64,000 bases of DNA from Ancylobacter sp. WKF20. Lineage in GTDB: Bacteria; Pseudomonadota; Alphaproteobacteria; Rhizobiales; Xanthobacteraceae. Numbering within the stretch: the stretch's first letter is position 1; every line of letters begins with the position of its first letter. Location of the stretch: assembly GCF_029760895.1 (NCBI RefSeq), contig NZ_CP121679.1, forward strand, positions 4,260,001 through 4,324,000, in the 5' to 3' direction. Positions 31,907-57,107 of this stretch are shown here, one piece after another. The translations under genes and the position numbers were made by a program. The notes under the pieces are model-generated. The model searched no databases. It was not told the origin of the DNA and saw only the letters and a program-made list of their open reading frames with translations.

Positions 31907-34900
31907 TTGTTCACCCGGCTGATGACGTCACGGCGCTTCGCGCCGCTTTTCTGGTGCCAGTTCTTCTCCGCCTTCAACGACAATTTCGTGAAGAACGCCA
32001 TGGCGCTCCTCATCCTCTACGGCCTCGCCTCGACGGCGGAGACCGGCGGGGCGCTGGTGACGCTGGCGGGCGGCGTGTTCATCCTGCCCTTCTTCCTGTT
32101 CTCCAGCCTCGGCGGGCAACTGGCCGACCGCTACGACAAGGCGCTGATCGCCCGCCGGCTGAAATTCGCCGAGATCTGGATCGTGCTCGTCGCCTCCTCC
32201 GGCTTCGTGCTCGGCTCGCTGCCGCTGCTGTTCATCGGCCTGTTCCTGATGGGCACGCTGAGCGCGCTGTTCGGGCCGGTGAAATACGGCATCCTGCCCG
32301 ACCATCTCGCCCGCGATGAGCTGGTCTCCGGCAATGCGCTGGTGGAGATGGCGACCTTCGCCGCCATTCTCGGCGGCACGGTCGGCGGCGCCATCGCCGT
32401 CACCCATACGCATGACTGGGCGGTGGCCGGCTTCACCTTCGTCTTCGCGGTGATCTGCTGGCTGAGCGCGCGGGCCATTCCGCACACGGCGGAAGGCGCG
32501 CCCGATCTCAAGATCGACGCCAACATCTGGCGCAGCACGGTGGCGCTGATTTCCGAGCTGCGCGCCACCCCCGCCATCTGGCGCGGCACGCTCATCGTCT
32601 CCTGGTTCTGGCTGGTCGGCGCTGTGGTGCTGGCGCTGCTGCCGACGCTGGTGAAGGAAGATGTCGGCGGCACGGAAGGCGTCGTCACGCTGTTCCTGCT
32701 GCTGTTCACTGTCGGCGTTGCCATCGGCTCCACGCTGGCGGCCAAGCTCTCCGAAGGGCGCATATTGCTGGCGCTGGTGCCGTTCGCCGGCTTCGTCATG
32801 GCGGGCTTCGCGCTGTTCCTCGGCGCGCATTTCGCCGCGCTGACGCCCGCCGCCGAGCCGATCGGCTGGTATGATTTCCTCACCTCGGATGTCGGCCTGC
32901 TGGCCGCGCTCGGACTTGTCGGCCTCGCCGCCGCGGGCGGCGCCTTCGTGGTGCCGACCTTCGCCTTCGTGCAGGCGGAAGCGGGCGAGGATCGCCGCGC
33001 CCGCGTCATCGCCGGCAATAACGTGCTGAACGCCGCCTTCATGACGGTGGGCGCGGTGGTGGTCGCCGGTCTTCAGGCCGCCGGCGTCGGCGCGCCGGCG
33101 CTGCTGGCGCTTATCGGCGTGACGACGCTCGTCGCCGCCTTCCTGACGGCGCGGGCCTTCCGCGGCCATGTGCTGCGCGACCTGATCCGCCTCGTTTTCC
33201 GCGTCGCCTTCCGCGTGGAGGTGAAGGGCGCCGAGCATCTGAAGGCCGCCGGGCCCGGCTCGGTCATCGCCATCAACCATGTGAGCTTCCTCGACGCGCC
33301 GCTCATCATGGCGCTGCTCGACCACGACCCGATCTTCGCGGTCGATGCGGGCATCGCCGAGCGGTGGTGGATCAAGCCGTTCCTCAAGCTGGTCCGCGCC
33401 TTCCCGCTCGACCCCACTCGCCCGCTGGCGACGCGCGACCTCATCCGCCTCGTCCAGCAGGGCGAGCGGCTGGTGATCTTCCCGGAGGGGCGCATCACCG
33501 TCACCGGCTCGATCATGAAGATCTATGACGGCTCGGCGCTGGTGGCCGACAAGGCGAAGGCGCCGGTGGTGCCGGTGCGCATCGAGGGGCTGGAGCAGAC
33601 CTATTTCTCGCGCCTCACCCCGGACCAGACGCGCAAGCGCCTGTTCCCCAAGGTGCGCGTCACCATCCTGCCGCCGCAGCGCATCGAGCTCGACCCGGAG
33701 CTGTTCGGCCGCAAGCGCCGGCGCGCGGCGGGCGCGGCGCTCTACGACATCATGTCGGACCTAATCTTCGAGACCTCGCACACCGACCAGACCATCTATC
33801 AGGCGGTGAAGGAGGCGGGCGAGCGGCTCGGCATGGGGCGCCTCGTGGTGGAAGATCCGCTCGGCACCGCGCTCACCTACCGCAAGCTGGTGCTCGGCGC
33901 GCGCATCCTCGGCGACAAGCTGGCAGAGGTCACCGAACGTGGCGAGAAGGTCGGCGTGCTGCTGCCCAACGCAGCGGGCATCGCCGTCGTGCTGATGGGC
34001 CTGTCCCGCCATGGCCGCGTGCCGGTGATGCTGAACTACACCGCCGGCGCCGTGAACCTCGTCGCGGCCTGCAAGGCGGCTCAGGTGAAGATCGTCGTCG
34101 CCTCCCAGGCCTTCATCGACAAGGCGCGGCTGGAGGCGGAGGTGGCCGAGCTGTCGAAGCATGTGCGCGTGCTGCTCACCGAGGATCTGCGCGCCCAGGT
34201 CACCGGCGCCGACAAGTTCAAGGCGTTGCTGCCGCTGCCCGACCCCAAGCCCGCCCACCCGGACGAGCCGGCCTTCATCCTGTTCACCTCGGGCTCGGAA
34301 GGCAGTCCCAAGGGCGTCGTGCTCTCCCACCGCAACATCCTGACCAATGTGGCGCAGGTGGCGGCGCGGATCGACTTCTCGCCGGCCGACATCATGTTCA
34401 ACGTGCTGCCGGTGTTCCATTCCTTCGGCCTCACCGGCGGGCTGATCCTGCCGATGGTGTCGGGCCTCAAGACCTATCTCTACCCCTCGCCGCTGCACTA
34501 CCGGATCATCCCGGAACTGGTCTACGCCACCAACGCCACCGCCATTGTCGGCACCGACACCTTCCTCATGGGCTATGCCCGCACGGCCAACCCCTATGAT
34601 TTCCGCTCGCTGCGCTTCGTGGTGGCCGGCGCCGAGCCGGTGAAGACGGAGACGCGGCGTGTGTGGATGGAGAAGTTCGGCCACCGCATTCTGGAGGGTT
34701 ATGGCGTGACCGAATGCGCGCCGGTGCTGGCGGTGAACACGCCGATGTTCAACCGCGCCGGCACGGTGGGCCGGATGCTGCCGGGCATCGAGCATGTGCT
34801 GGAGCCGATGACGGGGATCGAGGAAGGCGGGCGGCTGCGCGTGCGCGGGCCGAACATCATGCTCGGCTATATCCGCGCCGAGGCGCCGGGCGTCCTCGAG

Positions 34901-35332
34901 CCACCGGAGGAGGGCTGGTACGACACCGGCGACATCGTCGCGCTGGACGAGGAGGGCTTCGTCGCCATTCGCGGCCGGGTCAAGCGCTTCGCCAAGATCG
35001 CCGGCGAGATGATCTCGCTCGCTGCCATCGACGCCATGGTGGCCGCGCTGCGGCCGGATGCGGAGCATGTCGCGGTCGCCATTCCCGACGCCAAGCGCGG
35101 CGAGCGTATCCTCCTGCTCACCACCGCCACCGACCTCACCCGCGCGGCCCTGCAGGCGCACGGGCGCGAGATTGGCGTGACCGAGCTGATGATCCCGGCC
35201 GAGATCCTGCCCATGGACAGCCTGCCGCTGCTCGGCACCGGCAAGGTGGACTTCACCAAGGCGCGCGTCATGGCGCTGGAGATGATCGCCGCCCGCAACG
35301 TCACGGCGGGCGGGGCTGGAGGCCCGGCATGA
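31907..35332 (+). CDS. MFS-PlsC-acyl-ligase fusion (lysophospholipid transporter / 2-acyl-GPE acyltransferase / acyl-ACP synthetase)
   Basis: An 1141-aa three-domain protein. Residues 1 to about 420 are an LplT-like MFS transporter (FFSAFNDNFVKNAMALLILY). About 435-620 is a PlsC acyltransferase with NHVSFLD (about 457-463) and FPEGRIT (about 524). About 640-1141 is an AMP-binding acyl-CoA/ACP ligase with FTSGSEGSPKGVVLSH (about 792) and GWYDTGDIV. Together the parts match LplT plus Aas, which import lysophospholipid and reacylate it at the inner membrane. It starts at a TTG with GGGAGG nine bases upstream and overlaps the TetR gene by four bases. Confidence 0.9.
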   Translation: MFTRLMTSRRFAPLFWCQFFSAFNDNFVKNAMALLILYGLASTAETGGALVTLAGGVFILPFFLFSSLGGQLADRYDKALIARRLKFAEIWIVLVASSGFVLGSLPLLFIGLFLMGTLSALFGPVKYGILPDHLARDELVSGNALVEMATFAAILGGTVGGAIAVTHTHDWAVAGFTFVFAVICWLSARAIPHTAEGAPDLKIDANIWRSTVALISELRATPAIWRGTLIVSWFWLVGAVVLALLPTLVKEDVGGTEGVVTLFLLLFTVGVAIGSTLAAKLSEGRILLALVPFAGFVMAGFALFLGAHFAALTPAAEPIGWYDFLTSDVGLLAALGLVGLAAAGGAFVVPTFAFVQAEAGEDRRARVIAGNNVLNAAFMTVGAVVVAGLQAAGVGAPALLALIGVTTLVAAFLTARAFRGHVLRDLIRLVFRVAFRVEVKGAEHLKAAGPGSVIAINHVSFLDAPLIMALLDHDPIFAVDAGIAERWWIKPFLKLVRAFPLDPTRPLATRDLIRLVQQGERLVIFPEGRITVTGSIMKIYDGSALVADKAKAPVVPVRIEGLEQTYFSRLTPDQTRKRLFPKVRVTILPPQRIELDPELFGRKRRRAAGAALYDIMSDLIFETSHTDQTIYQAVKEAGERLGMGRLVVEDPLGTALTYRKLVLGARILGDKLAEVTERGEKVGVLLPNAAGIAVVLMGLSRHGRVPVMLNYTAGAVNLVAACKAAQVKIVVASQAFIDKARLEAEVAELSKHVRVLLTEDLRAQVTGADKFKALLPLPDPKPAHPDEPAFILFTSGSEGSPKGVVLSHRNILTNVAQVAARIDFSPADIMFNVLPVFHSFGLTGGLILPMVSGLKTYLYPSPLHYRIIPELVYATNATAIVGTDTFLMGYARTANPYDFRSLRFVVAGAEPVKTETRRVWMEKFGHRILEGYGVTECAPVLAVNTPMFNRAGTVGRMLPGIEHVLEPMTGIEEGGRLRVRGPNIMLGYIRAEAPGVLEPPEEGWYDTGDIVALDEEGFVAIRGRVKRFAKIAGEMISLAAIDAMVAALRPDAEHVAVAIPDAKRGERILLLTTATDLTRAALQAHGREIGVTELMIPAEILPMDSLPLLGTGKVDFTKARVMALEMIAARNVTAGGAGGPA

Positions 35333-38618: not shown

Positions 38619-38647
38619 GGCCGCTTCATCCGTCCTGCGGGAAAGGG

Positions 38648-38744
38648 TGGGAGGCTGGACAGAGACCCGAGACCGGGCTCGTTGGGGCTGCTTCCTTCCG
38701 GACCTGACCCGGTTGGCGAGTGGCTCGTCCACCGCCAACCTCCC
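38648..38744 (-). ncRNA. ffs: Signal recognition particle RNA, small bacterial type (4.5S)
   Basis: The minus strand carries GGGTCAGGTCCGGAAGGAAG followed by CAGCC, the invariant domain IV hairpin that binds Ffh. The flanks pair into the long rod: GGGAGG at the 5' end with CCTCCC at the 3' end, and GGTTGGCG with CGCCAACC nearer the middle. The transcript is about 97 nt. With Ffh it targets nascent inner-membrane proteins. Both ends are approximate by a few bases. Confidence 0.93.
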
Positions 38745-38779: not shown

Positions 38780-38816
38780 GGGGCGCTCGGTTGCACACCA
38801 CGGTCTTGGGTCGTTC

Positions 38817-39890
38817 CTACGCTCTAATCTGCGCACCTCGATTCTGATAGTCTTGATACCTTCGCGCCAACCGATAGAGACGACTTGGTCTGCCGTGCCC
38901 TCTTCCAACCCGCCCTTTGTGACTCTCTATTATTTCAGCAAGCTTAACATTAAACAATGGAATTAGTAAAATGTCTGAAGTGTCGGGAGACATCTTAAGA
39001 TCATTTGATGTTTCTCTCAGATAATCATTAAAACTTTCAATTTTTGTACGAATTAAATCTCCATCAAAAAAACCAATGCAGTCTTTTATCTTTTGTATTG
39101 AATTAATATTCATTATTTTTAATTGATCAAATAAATGTCCAGAGTTCAGGGATGGCGTGTTTATTTGGAAGTTTTCTTTCAATTTTGTAACAAAATCATG
39201 TATGTCTGCAAATGGGCCTTCATTTTGTTCAGTTCTCTTTTCAAAAGCTGAAATAAGACGCGATATGAATTCGTCTCCTAAACGAACATTTTGTCCGAGT
39301 GCGCGCAATAAAAATCTTTCATCTTCAGATGGACTGCCAATTGTTGGCTTGTAAACAATATCGTGCTCGATCTCATTCCATACGTGGGATATCATTGTGC
39401 ATATTTGTATTTCGCAACTAATATCATCCAAGTTATCGTAAATTCCAATCAATTCATCATCTGGCAAATAAACTTGTGAATGTATTGATCGATAAAAATT
39501 ATTAGAATTAGTTAAATTTTTATCTTTATTTTCGGTTCTTATCGATCTTTCAATTTCATCACTAAATGATTTTTTTAACAAGCTTTCTACCAGTGCGCAA
39601 TCTTCAAATCTATAAGTTGCCACTCGTACTCCAGCTAAGTCGCTGATGCTATCAAATATTTCATCGACTGTTTGGTAGTTTCGCGTGTCTTGCAAAGAAA
39701 AGCGTCGCAACTTCCCTTCAAATGATTTTACGGTTTTTGATCTGAATGTGACCTGTGCGCGAATGGCGTTCTCTTCGCATATGTCTGTTCTACAAATTTC
39801 AGCAACGCGTTCTGCAAGCTTAGAGTATCGATCGCGCTCTCGCTGATATCTCTTCACTGCGACATCGATCAGTGCTTCGGAAAATGGCAT
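38817..39890 (-). CDS. RelA/SpoT-domain (p)ppGpp synthetase-like protein, horizontally acquired
   Basis: A 357-aa protein with an alarmone-synthetase domain at about 45-185. It has RSKTVKSFEGKLRR (ATP-binding basics), DLAGVRV (84-90), YRSIHSQV (133-140, with the guanine-stacking Tyr) and CEIQICT (Glu160, catalytic) followed by VWNEIEHDIVYK. No HD hydrolase, TGS or ACT domain is present, so it is a stand-alone synthetase type. The remaining 170 residues are helical and unrecognised. The gene is strikingly AT-rich (11 G+C in 39481-39540, against GC-rich neighbours) and lies between pip and ffs. Stand-alone relatives include toxSAS toxins and the phage-sensing CapRel. The domain is firm; a defence role is inference. 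Confidence 0.85.
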   Translation of the reverse strand: MPFSEALIDVAVKRYQRERDRYSKLAERVAEICRTDICEENAIRAQVTFRSKTVKSFEGKLRRFSLQDTRNYQTVDEIFDSISDLAGVRVATYRFEDCALVESLLKKSFSDEIERSIRTENKDKNLTNSNNFYRSIHSQVYLPDDELIGIYDNLDDISCEIQICTMISHVWNEIEHDIVYKPTIGSPSEDERFLLRALGQNVRLGDEFISRLISAFEKRTEQNEGPFADIHDFVTKLKENFQINTPSLNSGHLFDQLKIMNINSIQKIKDCIGFFDGDLIRTKIESFNDYLRETSNDLKMSPDTSDILLIPLFNVKLAEIIESHKGRVGRGHGRPSRLYRLARRYQDYQNRGAQIRA

Positions 39891-39960
39891 GGAAAGTCCA
39901 TATTTAAAGCGTTACATATTTGATGTTCAGTGAATTTATATCACGTTGCAAGTCAAGTGT

Positions 39961-40950
<990 letters not shown>

Positions 40951-43197: not shown

Positions 43198-46100
43198 TCA
43201 GAACCTGAGGGAGAACTGCGCCCAGAAGGCGTTCTGGCTGGCCTGCGAGGCAAGCTGCCCGGAATAGTTCACCTGGATGGAGGCGAGGTCCGAGAGAGCA
43301 TAGGCAATCCCTGCTCCCACCACGAAGGTATCCTCGGCGAGAGGAACGCCCTGCGTGGTGAAGAGCGTCGCGCCATCCAGGAAGCGCATGTTGGCGGTGG
43401 GGGTCGTGTCGCCAAAAGCATGCTGCCAGCCCAGGGTCACGCTCGGGGTGAGGGCGCGCCCGCCCATAAGGAAGCTTGTCGCCACCCGCGCGCCCAGCGT
43501 TGTGTAGAGCGTGCTCATGCTCTCCACATTGATCGCCAGACCCGCTCCATTGGTGCCGCTCTCATTGGTCGAGCCGCTGGAGACGTTGACATAAGCCAGA
43601 CCCGCAAAGGGCTCGAACTCATAGGCCCCGAAAGCCAGCCGGTAGCTGGCCTCGCCGAACACCTGTGTCGTGCCCAGTGTGTAGCTTCCGCTCTCCGTTC
43701 CAGAGAAGCCGGTGAAGGCGACGGTGCGCGTCACGTCGATGTCGTGCCAGCTATAGGATGCGCCGCCTCGCAGCCCGAGCGCGCCGAACTGGCCACCGAG
43801 ATAGACGCCCACATCGTAGCTATCCATCGAGCCGAAGGACGAGGCCGCATCGACATCGAACTGGGTCTCGCTGAAGCCCGCCACAATGCCCGCCCGCACA
43901 TTGCCGCCAATGTCCGCGTCGACACCGGCCAGGAAGCCGCCCATGGACGAGGAGATGGTCGAGGCATTGCCATCACCGTAGGCATCGCCCCAAGCCCCGT
44001 AGCCCTGTGCCCACAGGATCGGGGTGAGATCCTTGCCAAGGGCCGCCGTGGCCGGCCCGGCGGCCTTCGCCGCATAGGAGAGGGCGCCAGTCTCGTCATC
44101 CGTCGCGGACTGGCGCAACCGCGCACCCACGGCATCGCGCAGATAGATGCTCTCCTGCTGGATGACCGTGCTCACCGAGGGATAGATCTCGCCCGAGAGC
44201 TGGTTCAGCGCCGGCGCCACCTGCGAATCCGTGAGGCCATAGAGGGCCTCGAGCACCGGATTGGTATCGCTCAGTTGCTGCGCCGCCACCGCCACATTGA
44301 TCTCGTTGGCGGTCTGCGCATAGTCCACCAGCTGCATGCCGTTATAGACGAAGCTCAGATAGACGTTCTGCGCATCATAAGTGAGGGACGGCGTCAGGAA
44401 GGCATAATTGGAGGTCACACTTCCAAACGTGCCCGTCAGCGTTCCCGCCGTGCTCAGGATCGTCACCTGCCCGCTACGGGCATAGCTGCCCTCGGTCGCA
44501 TTCACGACGACGCTGGCCCCGGAGGACACGGTCACATCGCCGGTGGCGACGATGAGGTCGTGGGCGCCTTCCGGCGTCAGGTCCACCGCGTAGACGGACC
44601 CCGCATTGAAAGCGACGGTTCCGTTCACCGTGAGCGTGCCCGGTGAATAGCCCGGCGCCGCCGTGCCCCCGCTATTGACCGTGAGCCCGCCAATGGTCGC
44701 CGTGCCGCTCAGAACGCCGCCGCTATTGACCGTGAAGGGCGAGGTGGTGGTTGTGCCCGAGCTCAACTCGACGGTGCTGCCGTCCACCGCGACCGCCCCG
44801 GTATAGGGCGCCGAGAACTCCACCGTGCCCCCGGCGAAGATCACCGCACCCGAGCCGGTGATGCTTCCCGTGAACGCGTAACTGTCGGACCGGTTGAACA
44901 CCAGGATACCGTCGTTGACGATGTTGCCGATGATGGAGCCAGTCGTCCCGCCATCGCCGATCTGGAGCGTGCCCGCCGTTATGCTGGTCGTTCCCGTATA
45001 GGTGTTCGTGCCAGTCAGGATGAGCGTTCCGGTGCCGGTCTTGTCCAGATTGCCGCCACCGGAGATCACGCCCGAGAGAATGAGCGTCTCGGCCGCATCC
45101 ACCGCGATGGCCGCATCGGAGGGCGCGGACACCACGTCGGCGAGCAGCACATTGTTGGCGAGGGTGAAGCTGCCGCTCGCGCGCAGGGTGGCGCCCCGGT
45201 CGATGGTCACGGCGCCCGTACCCAGCGCCTGCCCGGATGCGATGCGCAGCGTGCCCGCGCCTACGGTGGTCCCGCCGGAATAGGTGTTCACGCCCGTCAG
45301 GGCGAGTTCACCGCTACCCAGCTGCGTGACCGAGCCGGTGCCCGAGATCACGCCGTCGAAACTCGTCGTGTCCGACCGGTTGAAAACGAGCGCGGCGTTG
45401 TTCACCACATCGCCCAGGATCGCGCCCGACGCGCCGCCCGCGCCGATCTGGAGCGTACCGCCGGAAATGGTGGTGCCGCCCGTATAGGTGTTGGCTCCCG
45501 ACAGGATCAGCGTTCCGAGATCCGTCTTCTCAAAGCCCGCGGAGCCGGCGAGGACGCTTTCGATGGTCGCTTCCGTGGCGGCGCCCGCCTCGGTGCCGTC
45601 GCCCACGCGGATCGTCGCGCGGCCCGTGCCGGTGAGCGTGATCGCGGCGCCCGTCACCAGATAGCCGCTGTCCACGAACTGCATGCCGCTGGCGGTGACC
45701 GCCCCGTTGCTGGCGTCCACCGTGACAGTGCCCGAAATGCCCTGGAACACGGCGAAATTGCCGTTCCAGTCCTGCGCTATGGTGCCGGAGGCATTGGTCC
45801 AGTTGGTCTGGCTGGCCGCCGTCCATGTGCCGGTGCCGCCTTCCACGGTCTGGGTGGCGGTGGTGTAGGGGCCGTTCCAGAACAGGGTGGGGCTGCCCGT
45901 GGTCTCGACCACCAGGTTCACCTGTCCCGCCACAGAGGTCTGCACGCCGCCGAGCAGGCCATCCGAAAGGGAGGCCACATCGAGCCCGTTGTCGGTCAGG
46001 CTGCCGGTGTAACTGGCGAGGCGATAGATGCCGGCGCCGAAGCTCGGGGCCTGGGTCACGTTCAGCGTGCCGTCCAGCGTCACATTGCCGTTCACCGTGA

Positions 46101-49100
46101 ACACGCCGCTGCCGGAGGGGGCGCCGAGCGTGACGTTCAGGTTTGACCCCGACTGCATATCGAGCCCGCCCATGGTCAGGCCCGTGGGCTGTCCGCCCTC
46201 CAGCGTGCCGCCATAGAGCAGGTGGACGGTCTGCGCCACGCTGCCCGTACCGGAAAGGCTCGCGCCATCCCCCACCGAGACGTCGCCCGCCACGCTGCCG
46301 GTGAGGGCGACCGTGCCGCCGCTGAGGGTGGTCGTGCCCGTATAGGTGTTCTCACCGCTCAGGGTGAGCGTGCCGGAGCCGACCTTGGTGAGGCCGCCAG
46401 TTCCGGACAGGATACCCGAGAAGGTACCGGAGCTGTTGTCAGCGCCCACGGACAGCGTCGCCGCGTTCATCTGCACGGTGCCGCCGCCGCTGATCGCGCC
46501 GAGTTCCTTGGTGCCGGTCATCTGGAGGTCGAGGGTCGCTCCGCTCGCCACCGATATGGCGCTGAAGTCCGCCAGCGCGGCATTGCCCTGCGCCACCAGC
46601 GTCCCGGCGGAGACCGTGGTCGTGCCCGTAGAGGTGTTGGTCCCGCTCAAGGTAAGCGTGCCAGCGCCCGTCTTGGTCAGGCCCCCCGTGCCGGAGAGCG
46701 TGCCGGAGAAGCTGGAACTGGTGCCGTCGCCACCCGCGGTGAGGGTGTGGCTGCCCAGCGCGACAGTGCCCGCGCCGGCGAGGGAGCCGACAGTCTCATC
46801 TGCATCGTCGAGCGACAGGGTCGCGCCCGCGCCGACGGTCAGGCGCGCGCCATCGGCCAGCGAGGCGCCGCCGCTGATGGCCAGCGTTCCGGCAGAGACC
46901 GTGGTCGCCCCGGTGAAGCTGTTGGTTCCCGTGAGCGTCAGGGTGCCCGCGCCCTGCTTGGTCAGCGTGCCCGTGCCGGAAATGGCGTCGGCATAGGTGA
47001 GGTTGTCGGACCGATCGAAGACCAGCGCGGCATTGTTCAGGATGGGGCCGGCCAGCGCGCCGGAGGTGCCGCCGTCACCCAGTTGGAGCGTGCCCGCCGC
47101 AATCGTCGTGGTGCCCGTGAAGCTGCTGGTCCCCGTCAGGATAAGCGTGCCCGAGCCCGCCTGGGTGAGGTCGCCGTCACCGGAAATGACCCCGCTGAAG
47201 GTAAGGCTGTCCGTGCGGTTGAAGGCGAGCGTTGCACCCGAGGCCACCGCCACATCGCCGAGAATGCTGCCGGTGCTGCCGCCATCGCCGATCTGCAGCG
47301 TGCCGGCCGAGACGGTGGTATCGCCCGTATAGGTATTGGTCGCCGTCAGGACCAGGGTGCCGAGGTCCGTCTTCTCGAGGCCGGTGGTGCCCTCGAGCAC
47401 CGAACCGATGGTCGCCACATAGCTGGCCCCATCGGCGCTGCCGTCGCCCACCCGGATCTGCGTCTGGCCGCTGGCGGCGGCGAGCGTAATCGTGCCGGAG
47501 GTGAGCGAATAGCCGTCCACCATGAACTGCATGCCGGTGGCGGAAACCGTGCCGGAAACAGTCACCTGCCCCGCCGTGCCGGCAAACGCCGCGAACTCGC
47601 TGTTCCACGCCACCGACTGGTTGAGCGGAGAGGTCAGCCAGTTGGTCGCGGCGAGGCTGGAGGACCAGGTGCCACTGCCGCCATGGATCGTTCCATCCGG
47701 CGTCGTGGTTGTGCCGTTCCAGTAGAGCAGGTCGCCATCGAGCACGTTAAGGTTCACGTGGTTGGGCACCACGCTGATGGAATAGGCATAATTCGACGGT
47801 GTGGAGCCAAGCTCAAGACCGTTATCGGCGACCATCGTCGTGTAGTCGATGAGGCGGTACACGCCGAGTGCAATAGCCCCGGTGTTGCTGATGTTCAGCA
47901 CGCCATCCAGCGTCAGGCTGGTGGCCTGGAGCACGCCGACACCGGTATTGGCGCCAAGCACCACATCGACATTGGCGCTGTCCGACAAGGTCAGCGCGGT
48001 CATGGACAGGCCGTAGAGGCCGGGCGTGCTGGTGGGCGCGGCGCGGATCGTGCCGCCATCCTGCACGCTCACCGTGCCGTTGACCGCGGCGCCGGCGGTG
48101 CCGCTCGTCTCGCCCTGCAACGTGGCGCCGCTGGCGACGGTGATGTTGCTGGCGAGGGAAACGCCGCTCAGGATTTCCAGCGTGCCGGCGGAGACGGTGG
48201 TGCCGCCGGCCGCGCTGTTCGCGCCGGTCAGGGTCAGCTTGCCGCTGCCCTGCTGCACGAGAGACCCGCTGCCGGTGATGGCCCCGGCGGCGACCACATC
48301 GTCCGAGCGGTTGAACGCCACCGTCCCGCTATTGGCGATGGCGCCCGCGATCGACCCGGTGGTTCCGCCATCGCCAATCTGCAGCGTGCCGGTAGAGACG
48401 GTAGTTGCACCCGTATAGGTGTTGTCCCCGCTGAGGATCACCGTACCGGAACCGGCCTGTGTCAGCGCGCCGCTGCCGGACAGCACGCCGGATAAGGTGA
48501 CGCTATCCGAGCGATTGATGACCAGCGTGCCGTTATTGGCGATGTCGCCGCCGATGCTGCCGCTCACGCCGCCATCGCCGATCTGGAGCGTGCCCGCCGA
48601 AATGGTGGTTCCGCCGGTATAGGTGCCAGGGGCGGTCACGATCAGCGTGCCGGCGCCGGTCTTGTTCAGGCCCGCGTTGCCCGCGAGGGTCGAGCTGATG
48701 GTGGCCGAGAGGCCGCTTTCCACCAGGATGGAGGGGACCGCGCCGGCGGCAAAGGCCGCAAGCTCGATCGAGCTGCCGGTCACCTCATAGCCATTCACCA
48801 GGAATTCCAGCCCCGCCACTTGCGGCGAGCTGCTGCCGCTCACGATGACCATGCCGCCCGTGCCGGCGAACACCGCGAGCCCACCCTGGCCCCAGGCGTC
48901 CGCGCTGGAGCCGGCCTCGTTCGTCCAGTTGGTGGTGGCCGCGGCCACGTCCCACGTGCCGGAGCCACCCACCACGGCGGAACCGCCGGAGGTTGTCGTG
49001 CTCCCGTTCCACCACTGCCCCGCCGCGACGACCAGGTTCACCTGCCCGCTGGTGGACGTGTCCACCGCGTAGAGGCTGTGCGCGGGGGCTGTTCCCACTT

Positions 49101-52100
49101 CGAGCCCGTTATCAGTGAGGGTGCTGCCATAGTTGATCAGGCGGTAAGTGCCGGTGGCGAAGCCGGCGCCCGCCGTGATGTCGAGCACGCCGTCCAGCGT
49201 CAGGCTGCCGCCCAGCCCCACCGCGGCCGTGGTGGTGGGCGCGCCCGCGGTGAAGGCAAACGTCGACGTGGCGCCGAGCGTCAGGGCGCCCGCCGTGAAG
49301 AGATTGCCGCTCGCGCCGGTCAGTGTGGCGCCGTCCGCAACGGTGAGCGTCCCGCTGACGATGCCGGAGCTGGTGCTGGCAAAGGTGGCGCCGGCGTTGA
49401 CGGTGATATCGCCGGACACGACGCCCGTCAGCGACAGCGTGCCGGCGGTCACGGTGGTCGGCCCGGTGCTGGAATTGGTGCCGGTGAACGTCAGCGTCCC
49501 GGCCCCCGCCTTCTCCATGGAGCCCGTTCCGGTAATGGTCCCGGAATAGGAGAGGTCGTCAGAGCGGTTGAAGATCAGCGCGGCATTATTGGTGATGTTG
49601 CCGGAAAGGGAGCCGGTGGCGCCGCCATTGCCGATCTGCAGTGTGCCATCGGAGATGGTGGTGCCGCCGGTGATGCCTGCCGCGCCGGTGAGGATGAGCG
49701 TACCCGCGCCGGTCTTCTCCAGCCCGTCGCTTCCGGAGAGGTCGGAGCCGATGGTGGCCGTGAGCCCGGTGCCCACAAGAATGGCGGGAACCGTGCCCGG
49801 CGCGAAGGCGGTGACGGTGATCTGGCCGCCAGTAACGGTATAGCCGTCGGTCAAGAACTGAATGCCCGCCACTTGCGGCGCCGTGGCGCCGCTGACGGTA
49901 ACGGTGCCCGCCGTACCGGCGAACAGTGCTAGACCGACCTGCCCCCAGGCATCGGCGCTCGAGCCTGCCGCATTGGTCCAGTTGGTGGTGGCCGCCGCCA
50001 CATCCCACGTCCCGTTCCCCCCAGCCACGGAGGAACCGCCGGCTGTCGTCACCGAGCCGTTCCACCACTGGCCCACGGCGACGGCCAGGTTCACCTGTCC
50101 GCTGGTGGCAGTGTCGAGATAGTACAGGCTGTCCGACGAGGTGGTGCCCAGCGTCAGACCGTTATTGGTGAGGGTGCCGCCATACGTGATGACGCGGTAG
50201 GTGCCGCTGGCAAAGCCGGTGCCCGCGCTGACGTCCAGCGTGCCACCGAGGACGAGGTTGCCGGTCACGCTCACCGCTGCGGTGGTCGGGGGAGTACCGG
50301 CGGTGAAATCGATTGTTGAGCCGGACGCGAGCGACAGCCCCCCGACGGTAAACAGGTTGCCGCTCGTGGCCGCCAGCGTCCCGCCGCTCTCGATGGTGAG
50401 CGTGCCGGCGACGAGGCCGGTGCTTGTGCCGACGAAGGTGGCGCCGGAACTGACGGTGACATTGCCGGCCATCCCGCCCGTGAGCGCCAGCGTGCCGGCT
50501 GAAACGGTGGTGAGCCCGGTGCTTGAGTTGGTGCCGGCGAACGTCAGCGTGCCGGCCCCAGCCTTCTGCAGGGTGCCGGTGCCGGAAATGGTCCCGGAAT
50601 AGGAAATGTCGTCGGAGCGGTTGAAGATCAGCGCGGCATTGTTGGTGATGTTCCCGGAGATCGACCCCGTTGTCCCACCATTGCCGAGTTGGAGCGTGCC
50701 ACCCGAGATGGTGGTGCCGCCGCTGTAACTGCTGTCCCCGGTCAGGGTGAAGGTGCCGGTGCCGGCCTTGGTAAGACCGAGGCTGTCACCCTGGCCCGGC
50801 GCGGACAGTGTGCCGGAGAAGGTGGTGCTGGTATTGTTCCCGCCGGCCGTCAGGACACGGCTGCCCCCCGTGGCGATGACGCTGCCCGCGCCGCTCAGGG
50901 AGCCGATGGTCTCGGACGCCGCAAGCGTCAGTGTGGCCCCCGAATCCACCGTGACCAAAGCGGTATCTGCGATCGCCGCTCCTCCGGAAACGGTCAGGGA
51001 GCCGCCGGAGACCCGATAGGTGCCAGTGGAGCTGTTCGTGCCCGCCAGCGTGAGCGTGCCGGTTCCCACCTTGGTGAGGGTTCCACTCCCGGTGATACTG
51101 CCCGAGAATGTGCCGCTACCGTCCCCAAGACCGATGGTGAGTTGCGTCGCGCCCAGCTGCAGAAATGCGGTGCCGGTCCCTCCGACCCCGTCATTGAGCA
51201 CCTTGATGCTCTTGCTGCCGCTGCCGCTGAAGGTCAGTTGCGTGCCGGCGCTGAGATTGACGGAGGATGCAGAAGCGATCGATCCCGTCGTGTTCACCAG
51301 CAGGGTGCCGCTCTGAAGGTTGAGAGCCCCCGTGAACGTGTTCGCGCCGCTGAGCGTTAGCGTGCCGCTGCCCGCCTTGCTGAAGGCCCCGTCGCCGGAG
51401 AGGATTCCGGAGAACGTGGTGGAGTTGTTGTTGCCACCTGCCGTGAGCGTCTGGCTTGACGCCAAGGACACGGCACCGGCTCCCGCCAGCGAGCCGATGG
51501 TCTCATTGCCCGTGACCGACAGCGTGCCCCCGGTCGCCACCGTGACCGCGCTGGAATCACCGATGGCAGAGCCGCCCGAGGCCACGAGCGTGCCGCCCGT
51601 GATGCTGGTCCCGCCGCTATAGGTGTTGGTGCCGGAGAGCGTCAGCGTGCCGGTTCCGGACACGGTGAGCCCGCCCGCGCCGGTGATGTTGCCGGAGAGC
51701 GTCTGCGCGGCGGAGGAGCCGTAATCGAACGTGGTGCCCGAGGCGAGGGAGAGGGCACCGGCATAGCTGCCCGTGCCGAGGGTGCCCGCGCCGGAAACCG
51801 TCAGCGTTCCCGCCGTGAGGGTGGTGTCGCCCGTATAGGTGTTGGCTCCGGACAGAACCAGCGCGCCGTCGCCGATCTTCTCCAGACCATTGGAACCCGC
51901 CAGCGGGGCGGAGATGGTAGCCGTGGTGCTCGAGCCGACCACATTGACCTGCGGCGTGGTGGAGCCGTTCAGGAGGGTGAGCGCATCACCGGCAATCGTA
52001 TAGCCCGATGTCTCGAACTTCAGCCCCTTGGCGGAGACCGCGCCGGACGTGGCGTCCACCGTCACCGTCCCCGCCGTGCCGGCGAAGATGGCGGTGAGGG

Positions 52101-54528
52101 TGGGGTCGGACACCACACGCGTCGTGCCGGATGAGTTCGTCCAGTTGGTGACGCCGCTCGCCGCCGCCGTCCAAGTGCCGTCGCCGCCGACGATCGGGCC
52201 GGAACTGCCTGTGGTGGTGGTGCCGTTCCAGTAGATCTCGGTTAGTGCATTGCCCGTGACGATCAGAAACACCTGCCCGGGGAAGGTGTTGGTGTCGATC
52301 GAGTACTGGAATTCGCTCGGCGCGGCGCCGATGGTGAGGCCGCTGCCCAGCAGACTGTTGGCATAGCTGACAATCACATAGGCGCCGGCATCCATGCCGC
52401 CGCCATTTATGATGTTCAGCGTGCCGTTGAGGGTCACAGACCCGTTCTGCAGCGCGATGAGTTCCGGCAGTCCCGTCGACGAGCCGAGGGTCAGGTTCAG
52501 CGTGCTGCCCGTGTTCAGCACCAGATCAGACTGTCCGGAAAGGGCGAAGGAGCTGGTGGTCTGAGCAACCGAAAGCTGGCCACCACTATTGACCGTGATC
52601 GTGCCCCCCACGGTTGCCGTGTGCGAGCTGTTGGTCGGGGTCGCCAGGATGCCACCGCTCTCCACCGTGACGGCGCCCGGAATCGTGCCAAGAGTGCTGG
52701 CACTGCCGAGTTGGAGAGTGCCGCTCTTGACCGTCCAGTTCGTCTGGGGCGAGGAGCCGGTGACTCCAGGCCCGTTGGTCAGGATCCAGGTGCCGGTCGT
52801 GTCCACCGCAAATTCGGTGAAGCCGGAGTAGGAGTAGGTGGATGTGACGCTACCGCCCAGATCGATCTGGCCGAGGTCGAAGACGCCGCCCGCGCCGCCC
52901 CATCTCAGCGTGTTGACGGTCTGATTTGCGGTTGTTGCCACCACATTTCCGGTGATGGTCGCGTAGGTGGAGCCCGACGAGCCCCCGCTCCCGAGCAGGA
53001 CCAGCGTGTTCGTGGTTGGAGTGTTGTCACCGTTTTCGAGGTAGATGGCGTCGGCACGCACGCCATTGCCATCGAGGCCGCCGGCAATCGTCGCTGCGAC
53101 ATCGAGAGTGATGGTCGTGGAGTTGACGGGGTCGTAGAAATAGCCCTCCAGCCCCCTGCCGCCGAGGCCGGCCGTGCCAGTACCGTTCCCGCCGAGGATT
53201 TGCCCGGAGAGGACGGTGATGTCCGAGACACCGCCACCCAGCACGAGGCCGGCGCCGCCGCCCATGCTGGCACCGTTGGTAGCGGTCCCTGCATCGCCGC
53301 CCTTGACGGTGGCGCCGGCCTGGATGGTCATGACAAGGTTGTTGGCGAGAATGCCGTAGCCGCCCAAGGAATAGCTCGTGGTCGAGGCATCGCCCGAATT
53401 GCCGCCTGTCACAGTGCCGTTGACAACAATATTGCCGGATTCGCCGATGAACATACCGTAGCCGCCCGAGCCGCTCGGTCCTGCCGCGTTGCTGCCTCCG
53501 TTGCCGCCCGTGACGGCCCCATCAATTGTAATTGTGCCGGTCAAGATGTTGGCTTCAATGCCGCGGCCACCGTCGGCGCCCTGGGACAATGCCGTCGCAT
53601 CGGCTCCGGCGCCGCCGGTCACAAAGGCATTGAGGGTCAGGTCCAGGGTAGCGCCCAGAATCGCTGTGCCACCGGGACCGGCATTGCTGTTGGTCTTTAA
53701 TGACGCTCCACCCTGACCACCAAAGACGGCTCCATTGATGGTGGCCGTCGCGGTGGTTCCGGTCGCGAACTCGATGCCGGAGCCGCCGATTCCGCCGTTC
53801 GCGCCACTTCCGCCGGCTCCGCCTGTGATGACCAGATTGACTGAAGAGGTGAAGGTGATGTCCTGACCGAAATAAAGGCCGACACCTCCTGAGCCGCCTC
53901 CGCCCGCGACATCCGCGGTGGAACCTGCGCCACCCGCGCCACCCGCGCCACCCGTGAGTGTGAAGGTTGCCGCGGACCAGTCGAGTAAGCCCGCGTTGTT
54001 GCCGAGAATGAGGGCTGCGGCAGCGCCGGCGCCGCCACCCCCGCCAAAGGATCCCGCGGTCCCGTCGCTACCATTGCCGCCGGTTAGACTCGTCGCGACG
54101 CCGCTGCCGTCACCGACATAGGTATGGCTGCCGCCGGCGCCGCCATCGCCACCGGTGCCGGCGCCTGACCCGCCCGCCCCGCCGGTAGCGCCGGCACCGC
54201 CGCCACCGCCGCTGCCATTTCCGCCGCCCGCGCCGCCAGCTCCGCCGGTTCCACCGGCCTGATAATTGTCGAAGCCTCTCGTGCCGGCCGTTGCGCCGCT
54301 GCCCCCTGCACCTTCGCCACCGCTACCGCTAGCGAGCGCCGGATGAGCCAACAGCGACACGGCGAGGAGTGGCACGAGGGCGGACGTGCGCATCAGGGTC
54401 TTGCGCAAACGGTCGCGTCCAGGTCCAGAATCACGCGAACCGAAACTTGAATGCGATCCCGCCACCACGACGCCCACCCCGAAACAAAAAGTCGAAACCG
54501 GCTTTCCCCAAGCCCGGTTCGTATTCAT
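43198..54528 (-). CDS. Giant autotransporter with beta-strand-repeat passenger
   Basis: A type Va autotransporter of up to 3,776 aa. A signal peptide (TSALVPLLAVSLLAHPALA) sits near residues 48-66, so the true start may be the ATG at 54393 or a TTG at about 54408. The Gly-rich head (GGAGGAGGGNGSGGGG; about 67-330) is followed by a long passenger of autotransporter-associated strand repeats (KTGAGTLTLSGTNTYTG; VSAGTLQIG). Five modules with [WY]WNG...GGxGTW...NW are spaced through it, near 52228, 50060, 49007, 47717 and 45873. The last 275 or so residues form the outer-membrane beta barrel, from LWAQGYGAWGDAYGDG to the terminal QFSLRF. It is probably an adhesin or biofilm protein. No frameshift is seen. 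Confidence 0.93.
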   Translation of the reverse strand: MNTNRAWGKPVSTFCFGVGVVVAGSHSSFGSRDSGPGRDRLRKTLMRTSALVPLLAVSLLAHPALASGSGGEGAGGSGATAGTRGFDNYQAGGTGGAGGAGGGNGSGGGGGAGATGGAGGSGAGTGGDGGAGGSHTYVGDGSGVATSLTGGNGSDGTAGSFGGGGGAGAAAALILGNNAGLLDWSAATFTLTGGAGGAGGAGSTADVAGGGGSGGVGLYFGQDITFTSSVNLVITGGAGGSGANGGIGGSGIEFATGTTATATINGAVFGGQGGASLKTNSNAGPGGTAILGATLDLTLNAFVTGGAGADATALSQGADGGRGIEANILTGTITIDGAVTGGNGGSNAAGPSGSGGYGMFIGESGNIVVNGTVTGGNSGDASTTSYSLGGYGILANNLVMTIQAGATVKGGDAGTATNGASMGGGAGLVLGGGVSDITVLSGQILGGNGTGTAGLGGRGLEGYFYDPVNSTTITLDVAATIAGGLDGNGVRADAIYLENGDNTPTTNTLVLLGSGGSSGSTYATITGNVVATTANQTVNTLRWGGAGGVFDLGQIDLGGSVTSTYSYSGFTEFAVDTTGTWILTNGPGVTGSSPQTNWTVKSGTLQLGSASTLGTIPGAVTVESGGILATPTNSSHTATVGGTITVNSGGQLSVAQTTSSFALSGQSDLVLNTGSTLNLTLGSSTGLPELIALQNGSVTLNGTLNIINGGGMDAGAYVIVSYANSLLGSGLTIGAAPSEFQYSIDTNTFPGQVFLIVTGNALTEIYWNGTTTTGSSGPIVGGDGTWTAAASGVTNWTNSSGTTRVVSDPTLTAIFAGTAGTVTVDATSGAVSAKGLKFETSGYTIAGDALTLLNGSTTPQVNVVGSSTTATISAPLAGSNGLEKIGDGALVLSGANTYTGDTTLTAGTLTVSGAGTLGTGSYAGALSLASGTTFDYGSSAAQTLSGNITGAGGLTVSGTGTLTLSGTNTYSGGTSITGGTLVASGGSAIGDSSAVTVATGGTLSVTGNETIGSLAGAGAVSLASSQTLTAGGNNNSTTFSGILSGDGAFSKAGSGTLTLSGANTFTGALNLQSGTLLVNTTGSIASASSVNLSAGTQLTFSGSGSKSIKVLNDGVGGTGTAFLQLGATQLTIGLGDGSGTFSGSITGSGTLTKVGTGTLTLAGTNSSTGTYRVSGGSLTVSGGAAIADTALVTVDSGATLTLAASETIGSLSGAGSVIATGGSRVLTAGGNNTSTTFSGTLSAPGQGDSLGLTKAGTGTFTLTGDSSYSGGTTISGGTLQLGNGGTTGSISGNITNNAALIFNRSDDISYSGTISGTGTLQKAGAGTLTFAGTNSSTGLTTVSAGTLALTGGMAGNVTVSSGATFVGTSTGLVAGTLTIESGGTLAATSGNLFTVGGLSLASGSTIDFTAGTPPTTAAVSVTGNLVLGGTLDVSAGTGFASGTYRVITYGGTLTNNGLTLGTTSSDSLYYLDTATSGQVNLAVAVGQWWNGSVTTAGGSSVAGGNGTWDVAAATTNWTNAAGSSADAWGQVGLALFAGTAGTVTVSGATAPQVAGIQFLTDGYTVTGGQITVTAFAPGTVPAILVGTGLTATIGSDLSGSDGLEKTGAGTLILTGAAGITGGTTISDGTLQIGNGGATGSLSGNITNNAALIFNRSDDLSYSGTITGTGSMEKAGAGTLTFTGTNSSTGPTTVTAGTLSLTGVVSGDITVNAGATFASTSSGIVSGTLTVADGATLTGASGNLFTAGALTLGATSTFAFTAGAPTTTAAVGLGGSLTLDGVLDITAGAGFATGTYRLINYGSTLTDNGLEVGTAPAHSLYAVDTSTSGQVNLVVAAGQWWNGSTTTSGGSAVVGGSGTWDVAAATTNWTNEAGSSADAWGQGGLAVFAGTGGMVIVSGSSSPQVAGLEFLVNGYEVTGSSIELAAFAAGAVPSILVESGLSATISSTLAGNAGLNKTGAGTLIVTAPGTYTGGTTISAGTLQIGDGGVSGSIGGDIANNGTLVINRSDSVTLSGVLSGSGALTQAGSGTVILSGDNTYTGATTVSTGTLQIGDGGTTGSIAGAIANSGTVAFNRSDDVVAAGAITGSGSLVQQGSGKLTLTGANSAAGGTTVSAGTLEILSGVSLASNITVASGATLQGETSGTAGAAVNGTVSVQDGGTIRAAPTSTPGLYGLSMTALTLSDSANVDVVLGANTGVGVLQATSLTLDGVLNISNTGAIALGVYRLIDYTTMVADNGLELGSTPSNYAYSISVVPNHVNLNVLDGDLLYWNGTTTTPDGTIHGGSGTWSSSLAATNWLTSPLNQSVAWNSEFAAFAGTAGQVTVSGTVSATGMQFMVDGYSLTSGTITLAAASGQTQIRVGDGSADGASYVATIGSVLEGTTGLEKTDLGTLVLTATNTYTGDTTVSAGTLQIGDGGSTGSILGDVAVASGATLAFNRTDSLTFSGVISGDGDLTQAGSGTLILTGTSSFTGTTTIAAGTLQLGDGGTSGALAGPILNNAALVFDRSDNLTYADAISGTGTLTKQGAGTLTLTGTNSFTGATTVSAGTLAISGGASLADGARLTVGAGATLSLDDADETVGSLAGAGTVALGSHTLTAGGDGTSSSFSGTLSGTGGLTKTGAGTLTLSGTNTSTGTTTVSAGTLVAQGNAALADFSAISVASGATLDLQMTGTKELGAISGGGTVQMNAATLSVGADNSSGTFSGILSGTGGLTKVGSGTLTLSGENTYTGTTTLSGGTVALTGSVAGDVSVGDGASLSGTGSVAQTVHLLYGGTLEGGQPTGLTMGGLDMQSGSNLNVTLGAPSGSGVFTVNGNVTLDGTLNVTQAPSFGAGIYRLASYTGSLTDNGLDVASLSDGLLGGVQTSVAGQVNLVVETTGSPTLFWNGPYTTATQTVEGGTGTWTAASQTNWTNASGTIAQDWNGNFAVFQGISGTVTVDASNGAVTASGMQFVDSGYLVTGAAITLTGTGRATIRVGDGTEAGAATEATIESVLAGSAGFEKTDLGTLILSGANTYTGGTTISGGTLQIGAGGASGAILGDVVNNAALVFNRSDTTSFDGVISGTGSVTQLGSGELALTGVNTYSGGTTVGAGTLRIASGQALGTGAVTIDRGATLRASGSFTLANNVLLADVVSAPSDAAIAVDAAETLILSGVISGGGNLDKTGTGTLILTGTNTYTGTTSITAGTLQIGDGGTTGSIIGNIVNDGILVFNRSDSYAFTGSITGSGAVIFAGGTVEFSAPYTGAVAVDGSTVELSSGTTTTSPFTVNSGGVLSGTATIGGLTVNSGGTAAPGYSPGTLTVNGTVAFNAGSVYAVDLTPEGAHDLIVATGDVTVSSGASVVVNATEGSYARSGQVTILSTAGTLTGTFGSVTSNYAFLTPSLTYDAQNVYLSFVYNGMQLVDYAQTANEINVAVAAQQLSDTNPVLEALYGLTDSQVAPALNQLSGEIYPSVSTVIQQESIYLRDAVGARLRQSATDDETGALSYAAKAAGPATAALGKDLTPILWAQGYGAWGDAYGDGNASTISSSMGGFLAGVDADIGGNVRAGIVAGFSETQFDVDAASSFGSMDSYDVGVYLGGQFGALGLRGGASYSWHDIDVTRTVAFTGFSGTESGSYTLGTTQVFGEASYRLAFGAYEFEPFAGLAYVNVSSGSTNESGTNGAGLAINVESMSTLYTTLGARVATSFLMGGRALTPSVTLGWQHAFGDTTPTANMRFLDGATLFTTQGVPLAEDTFVVGAGIAYALSDLASIQVNYSGQLASQASQNAFWAQFSLRF

Positions 54529-56874: not shown

Positions 56875-56985
56875 GTCGCCCGCTCCACTCAGCTGCCGCG
56901 CGCGGTCCAGCCTCGCGCAAGTTCCGTTCGGTTTAACGGACGCGCCCCTTGACGCCAAGCCGGGTGCGGGAGTAATCCCGCCGGG

Positions 56986-57045
56986 AACGTGGTCATTTGA
57001 GCCGGCCGGCTTGCCGCCACGCTAAATAAGGTTGCTAAAAAGGTC
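56986..57045 (+). promoter_or_regulatory. SAM-II riboswitch
   Basis: The leader of metZ shows the SAM-II pattern. P1 is CGTGG paired with CCACG (56988 and 57017). The conserved loop is TCATTTGAGCCGGCCGGCTT, and the downstream strand CTAAATAAGGTTGCTAAAAA with GG forms the H-type pseudoknot. SAM binding would hide the translation start region and lower MetZ synthesis. SAM-II elements are known before metA, metX and metZ in alphaproteobacteria, which fits exactly. Confidence 0.92.
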
Positions 57046-57107
57046 GGGGCCGCGCAGCGCATGCGCGTGGGCGTTCCCGGTCTGTCGAGAGATAGCGGAG
57101 CCGCCCG

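Follow-up and report, generated by a model that had tools for sequence, protein, structure and literature searches.

The question raised by this locus is what a lone, AT-rich gene for a RelA/SpoT-type synthetase is doing in a GC-rich stretch of 64,000 nucleotides of Ancylobacter sp. WKF20 (contig NZ_CP121679.1, positions 4,260,001 to 4,324,000; the whole stretch is called the window below), between the gene of a pip-like alpha/beta hydrolase and ffs, the gene of the small signal recognition particle (SRP) RNA. The reading towards which we lean, if only just, is that this gene belongs, as a solo member, to a distinct family of small alarmone synthetases (SAS) with a role in defence, that it was acquired horizontally into an insertion hotspot between pip and ffs, and that it would bring about phage-triggered growth arrest. 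A defence role of the family, judged from genomic context, is probable, and since many family members sit in anti-phage operons, the window gene too probably encodes a phage-defence enzyme. It is through this family, more than through the site it occupies, that the gene is of interest. The gene and its parts are as follows.

38817..39890, minus strand: SAS gene, intact and AT-rich, 357 codons with an ATG start, identified by Pfam and composition.
39231..39890, minus strand: predicted RelP/RelQ-like synthetase fold, residues 1-220, with Pfam RelA_SpoT at residues 50-182 and D84, Y133 and E160.
39399..39416, minus strand: CEIQIC family signature strand, residues 159-164, with a cysteine at the RelP/RelQ arginine position.
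38820..39227, minus strand: conserved C-terminal domain, residues 222-357, six helices in the model, matching no known fold.

The assignment of the N-terminal part is straightforward. Pfam RelA_SpoT (PF04607) scores 56 bits against a cut-off of 27, and neither a hydrolase (HD) domain nor any other Pfam domain appears in the protein up to E 1, as expected from the original prediction of a lone synthetase devoid of hydrolase. The family counts 354 homologues at E <= 1e-3, the best other match being 58% identical over 98% of the length, and conservation was read from 120 aligned proteins (the best 120 of the 354, the window's own included). The three key residues named in that prediction hold up well, D84 being kept in 119 of the 120 and Y133 and E160 in all, together with C33, H137, C159, Q162, C164 and H169. 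In a second alignment of 37 rows, comprising the window and 36 loci with distant relatives included, C159, E160, Q162 and H169 are again invariant, while C164 is kept in 34 rows and replaced by Thr in L037, L039 and L042. One member is broken, the frame at L026:8001-8891 ending after 296 residues while similarity to the query continues to residue 346.

By both sequence and fold, the closest solved relatives are RelP and RelQ; matches of the family profile to PDB sequences, up to E 10, are RelP/RelQ-type synthetases only, and the PDB titles of the nearest ones name GTP and pppGpp complexes. These relatives by sequence we take to be (p)ppGpp synthetases. Judged by sequence and modelled fold, the N-terminal part is a RelP/RelQ-like pyrophosphokinase that is intact and retains its catalytic residues. 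Plain RelP/RelQ membership was nevertheless rejected, given the cysteine instead of arginine at position 164 (120/120), the extra domain of 136 residues and the length of 357 residues. The signature strand reads EIQIRT in RelP/RelQ, EVQLRT in CapRel and ELQIWN in PhRel2 of phage Lily, and because all of these differ, the cysteine marks the SAS family among those compared. On the strength of its sequence, the gene product is one of a rare family of proteins, about 360 residues long, that share the mark CEIQ(I/V)C, and the CEIQxC strand suggests an altered acceptor site.

It is the genomic surroundings of this family that point to defence. The loci examined comprise 39 from genomes, 2 from viral contigs, 3 of 13 plasmid matches and 1 from a class genome, minus one duplicate, and in these 44 we looked for Pbe, Dnd and BREX proteins, using representatives of each as queries. 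Pbe (Dnd-type) genes adjoin the SAS gene in 16 of the 44 (14 genome loci and 2 plasmids), and 7 loci have BREX genes there, against background rates in 190 genomes of the class of 9 for PglZ (8 over the cut-off) and 3 for PbeA at E <= 1e-60. PADLOC confirms the neighbours in L008 (PbeA 893.1 bits, PbeC 82.4), in L024 (BrxC 2123.7, PglX 1205.9 and PglZ 1025.7 bits, the last cut at the end of the stretch) and in L033 (C-terminal part of PglX 735.1, PglZ 1535 and BrxL 965.8 bits). In both BREX examples the SAS gene lies among core genes, in the order PglX-SAS-PglZ-BrxL in L033 and BrxC-SAS-PglX, an ATPase-like open reading frame (ORF; named by eye) and PglZ in L024. PbeABCD is the system of the CxC ABC-ATPase and DndE, as presented in part of PMC10853773. 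On two Rhizobium plasmids the RelA/SpoT protein is followed by a sigma-factor-like helix-turn-helix (HTH) protein, a DEAD/DEAH helicase, a CxC small protein and two hypotheticals that match PbeC and PbeD, with genes for cysteine desulfurase, dndE, dndD and dndC divergent from this SAS-Pbe series. Further afield, the gene that lies about 95 bp downstream in L031, in the same orientation, encodes DrmD (657.9 bits) and is followed by one for a DrmMI/type IIG-like protein, a DISARM-like arrangement. Two loci have phage genes: portal, terminase and head protease in L074, and terminase small subunit, integrase and methyltransferase in L006. The link to phage defence, first proposed from the window alone, is strengthened by this context.

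Two further features of the family loci deserve mention. In the Pbe operons (tested for L008:9083-11710, with counterparts elsewhere) the gene that comes next after the SAS gene is about 520-990 codons long and encodes a sigma-70 region 4 domain; its product has a short MzaA match in L008 and falls outside the named PbeABCD. A calcineurin-like phosphoesterase gene lies near the SAS gene in L074 (L074:1771-2685, by Pfam) and, by eye, in L042 and L043; this enzyme could be the cognate hydrolase.

Several observations weigh against a defence role, either of the family or of the window gene. In a tree of 41 rows, the 16 Pbe rows form one group (100/98), and the 7 BREX rows form another together with L028, a 7-kb contig (100/100); uniting the seven BREX rows without L028 is not rejected (approximately unbiased test, p-AU 0.068). 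Three changes suffice to place the context labels on the tree, against a shuffled mean of 18.2. Because the Pbe rows make up one clade and the BREX rows fall with L028 in another, the defence associations are few and old rather than many. With L005, L006, L010, L014, L034, L074 and L102 the window row makes up a group of eight (98/97), none of them with Pbe or BREX genes. The remaining defence neighbours are adjacent or near without being clearly co-operonic, the SAS gene being convergent with MzaE-D-C-B in L014, divergent from DpdF, a weak DpdG and DpdH in L037, and 2.5 kb from a type IIG enzyme in L013. Fifteen of the 44 loci are without an identified defence or phage gene (a PADLOC scan covering one neighbour each of L028 and L034 among them gave no match), and in L101 the SAS gene adjoins error-prone DNA polymerase genes. 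Finally, no defence operon adjoins the window gene, whose neighbours are pip and ffs, and searches of its own genome for PglZ and PbeA found neither.

How such an enzyme might work, and be kept in check, leads to the C-terminal domain. This domain of 136 residues is conserved across the family, with D306 and R337 in 37/37 aligned rows, and is all-helical in the structure model. It was described at the outset as unrecognised, and so it has stayed: it has no consistent Pfam match, its best E against PDB sequences is 0.33, and comparison with PDB folds gave no convincing match. The absence of a separate antitoxin gene nearby was likewise confirmed, no ORF of at least 60 codons being found in the insert outside the SAS gene, on either side of which about 70 bp are free. 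In the mechanism we favour, the N-terminal pyrophosphokinase has its catalytic residues intact, and the enzyme would be held quiet by the helical domain or by the absence of a trigger, because no antitoxin gene adjoins it; control in cis by its own C-terminal domain is perhaps at work, and that this domain is a built-in antitoxin or sensor, as had been suggested, is possible. An infection cue would then free the enzyme, in operon-borne members possibly a failed or blocked restriction system. Pyrophosphate from ATP would be moved to a 3'-hydroxyl acceptor, be it a G or A nucleotide or the CCA end of a tRNA, and this transfer would halt growth before the phage matures. A tRNA acceptor is not preferred over nucleotides, since the nearest solved relatives are (p)ppGpp synthetases and the tRNA-targeting toxSAS are more distant. 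Where it is encoded in a BREX or Dnd-Pbe operon, this protein would serve as a backup effector that arrests growth. A bolder form of this proposal can be held only tentatively, its chance being somewhat under even: that the window gene represents the solo branch of a family of defence SAS not described before. On this view these SAS are modular effectors that back up immunity based on DNA modification (BREX, Dnd-Pbe and perhaps DISARM, Dpd and MZA); their acceptor site would be altered (CEIQxC), a new helical domain would act as cis-regulator or sensor, and pyrophosphorylation of nucleotides or tRNA would be tied to restriction failure.

The absence of an antitoxin gene could also be accounted for if the protein were CapRel-like in function by separate descent, that is, a fused toxin-antitoxin which pyrophosphorylates the CCA end of tRNA and whose C-terminal domain serves as both cis-antitoxin and phage sensor. 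This is unlikely, as sequence similarity to CapRel is undetectable (0.0 bits), the family profile prefers RelP/RelQ, and the model of the C-terminal domain consists of helices only. Moreover, although the window protein carries YQDY at 345-348, tyrosine stands at both columns in only 2/37 rows (the window and L013).

The protein could instead be an ordinary (p)ppGpp stress synthetase of RelP/RelQ type, carried as chance cargo on mobile DNA with no part in defence. In its favour are the nearest solved relatives, which are RelP/RelQ by sequence and fold, and a host that otherwise has a single long RelA/SpoT homologue. The cysteine in place of the EIQIR arginine in 120/120 homologues, the additional conserved domain, the defence-operon context in 23/44 loci and the very patchy distribution (2/385 class genomes at E <= 1e-25, own included) nonetheless make this account distinctly improbable. 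It is very unlikely, too, that the enzyme is a signal maker, with a nucleotide product that switches on or controls a partner protein, for example the sigma-like HTH protein of the Pbe operons. The sigma-70 region 4 protein does stand directly after the SAS gene in Pbe loci, and the synthetase resembles makers of signal nucleotides, but no such partner adjoins the window gene, nor do the BREX and solo members have one in the search of the 44 loci.

Returning to the solo defence enzyme, its horizontal acquisition is read from composition and from the borders of the segment, which are given here.

39961..40917, minus strand: pip-like alpha/beta hydrolase gene, the upstream border, with its stop at 39961.
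38646..38744, minus strand: ffs, small SRP RNA gene, the downstream border (Rfam RF00169, 57 bits).
38781..39978, no strand: foreign segment that replaces 55 bp of the relative G018 and includes the last 18 bases of pip, from comparison with G018.

The low GC content and sharp borders pointed out in the original prediction are evident. The GC of the SAS gene is 0.37 (0.458/0.346/0.304 by codon position), while six other genes of the window have 0.657-0.703, with 0.865-0.925 at third codon positions (GC3), and the surrounding DNA is about 68% GC. GC below 50% is found in 20 of 1274 overlapping 300-bp segments of the 64 kb, every one at the SAS gene. The last 38 codons, which encode the conserved family end GRGxGRPxR, are less AT-rich (53.5% GC, 0.535). 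On the downstream side, ffs starts 72 bp beyond the SAS stop codon.

The comparison with relatives agrees with a foreign insertion, as first supposed. A full-length copy is present in 0/60 relatives, of which 29 are of the same genus, and weak matches in G007 and G023 are confined to the synthetase part. Within the genus, ffs and pip are both present in 30/30 genomes, own included; in 24 of these they lie in the same order and at most 6.2 kb apart, pip being elsewhere in the other 6. The gap between them is near-empty in the close relative G018 (55 bp) and in G012 (87 bp), measures 1170 bp in the own genome, and reaches a maximum of 6181 bp. Low-GC ORFs (<52% GC, at least 130 codons) occupy 10 of the 24 gaps, own included; by BLASTP, the ones in G013 and G026 resemble each other and no others do. 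Scans of this cargo, which left out G013, G019 and G026, identified an abortive-infection gene in G016 (L080), whose AIPR protein scores 101.9 bits in Pfam and 90.3 bits as AbiU in PADLOC; for six other ORFs, taken from the gaps of five genomes, no Pfam match exceeded the cut-off, and the five of these also run against PADLOC gave no match there. Since several gaps hold GC-rich genes, one example being an ORF of about 390 codons that by eye resembles a serine hydrolase, the variation in gap length is not all foreign. The gap on the other side, between dnaX and ffs, is at most about 0.66 kb in 20 of 24 relatives with both aligned, the dnaX block not being found within 1.5 kb in the other 4. Across the genus, the space between pip and ffs varies and acts as a hotspot for insertions (window 38781-39978, loci L076-L098). 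It was correct that the gene adjoins that of the SRP RNA, but the site is a feature of this wider hotspot and not of the SRP RNA gene. That the SAS gene is a mere passenger caught in the hotspot, without present function and heading for loss, is highly improbable, for despite its foreign composition, its long branch (0.71) and odd make-up in the tree, and the broken relative L026, its frame is full-length with all listed family-invariant residues present.

Elsewhere in the window are three features of separate interest: a 3776-codon ORF (43198-54528, minus strand) with many Gly/Thr-rich repeats and an autotransporter-like end (by eye), a SAM_alpha riboswitch (56979-57059, plus strand; Rfam RF00521, 64.6 bits), and a 1141-codon ORF (31907-35332, plus strand) that appears by eye to be a fusion of transporter, acyltransferase and acyl-activating enzyme.

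How, then, does the family compare with what is known? The SAS already known from phage defence are the toxSAS toxins and CapRel (background also in part of PMC11559606). Membership of these groups, which the original prediction had entertained, is not borne out, the profile matching RelP/RelQ-type enzymes only among PDB sequences up to E 10. In FaRel2, PhRel2 and other bipartite toxSAS the antitoxin is separate, according to portions of PMC11782079; such a toxin-antitoxin pair was rejected here, as the adjacent antitoxin gene is missing and the neighbours are pip and ffs, and PhRel2 of phage Lily scores -0.2 bits against the family profile. CapRel SJ46, a fused tRNA-targeting toxSAS (PDB 7ztb, 9erv), was rejected on its 0.0 bits and on the scarcity of the YXXY columns, and it is not among the PDB sequence matches up to E 10. 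CapRel has a C-terminal pseudo-zinc-finger with YXXY (as given in parts of PMC9712102 and PMC11782079), and the SAS domain is modelled as all-helical. RelP and RelQ (PDB 6ewz, 6fgk, 5dec), with chains of about 210-255 residues, lack the C-terminal domain and carry EIQIRT, whereas the family carries CEIQ(I/V)C(T/S). The PADLOC candidate PDC-S33 (349 positions; 36.0 bits, residues 19-171) and the PHROG family phrog_9640 (365 positions; 73.9 bits, residues 14-210) match in the synthetase part, leaving the C-terminal domain uncovered.

Among the literature matches listed, none names a RelA/SpoT synthetase as a component of BREX, DISARM or Dnd-Pbe; supplements and most subscription papers are outside this scope, and an earlier description of a BREX or Dnd-Pbe synthetase is possible. 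A whole-word count of RelA, SpoT, ppGpp, pyrophosphokinase and SAS gives 0 both for the main text of the BREX survey (PMC12839542) and for PMC10853773 on Dnd, and RelA, SpoT, ppGpp and alarmone are absent from PMC12458937 on DISARM and Dpd helicases. The consulted part of PMC6459918 describes PbeABCD without such a synthetase gene. RelA/SpoT proteins are placed by passages of PMC8649781 in the toxin cargo of Tn7-like transposons (70 proteins) and by passages of PMC5512222 in phage polyvalent proteins, polymorphic toxins and toxin-antitoxin systems, in neither case tied there to BREX or Dnd-Pbe.

If the proposal is true, a separate family nearer to RelP/RelQ, recurring in BREX and Dnd-Pbe operons, would add a growth-arrest arm to systems so far described through modification and nucleases. 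The change from EIQIR to CEIQxC and the unmatched domain offer a handle on acceptor choice and triggering, and the solo members, being single small genes, should be easy to test. A parallel in design could be the BREX auxiliary effectors, which, in the portions of PMC12839542 drawn on here, are likewise encoded by an extra gene within or beside the core operon; those named are nucleases (HNH, HKD, PD-(D/E)XK, TOPRIM/OLD, HEPN, PIN and Schlafen).
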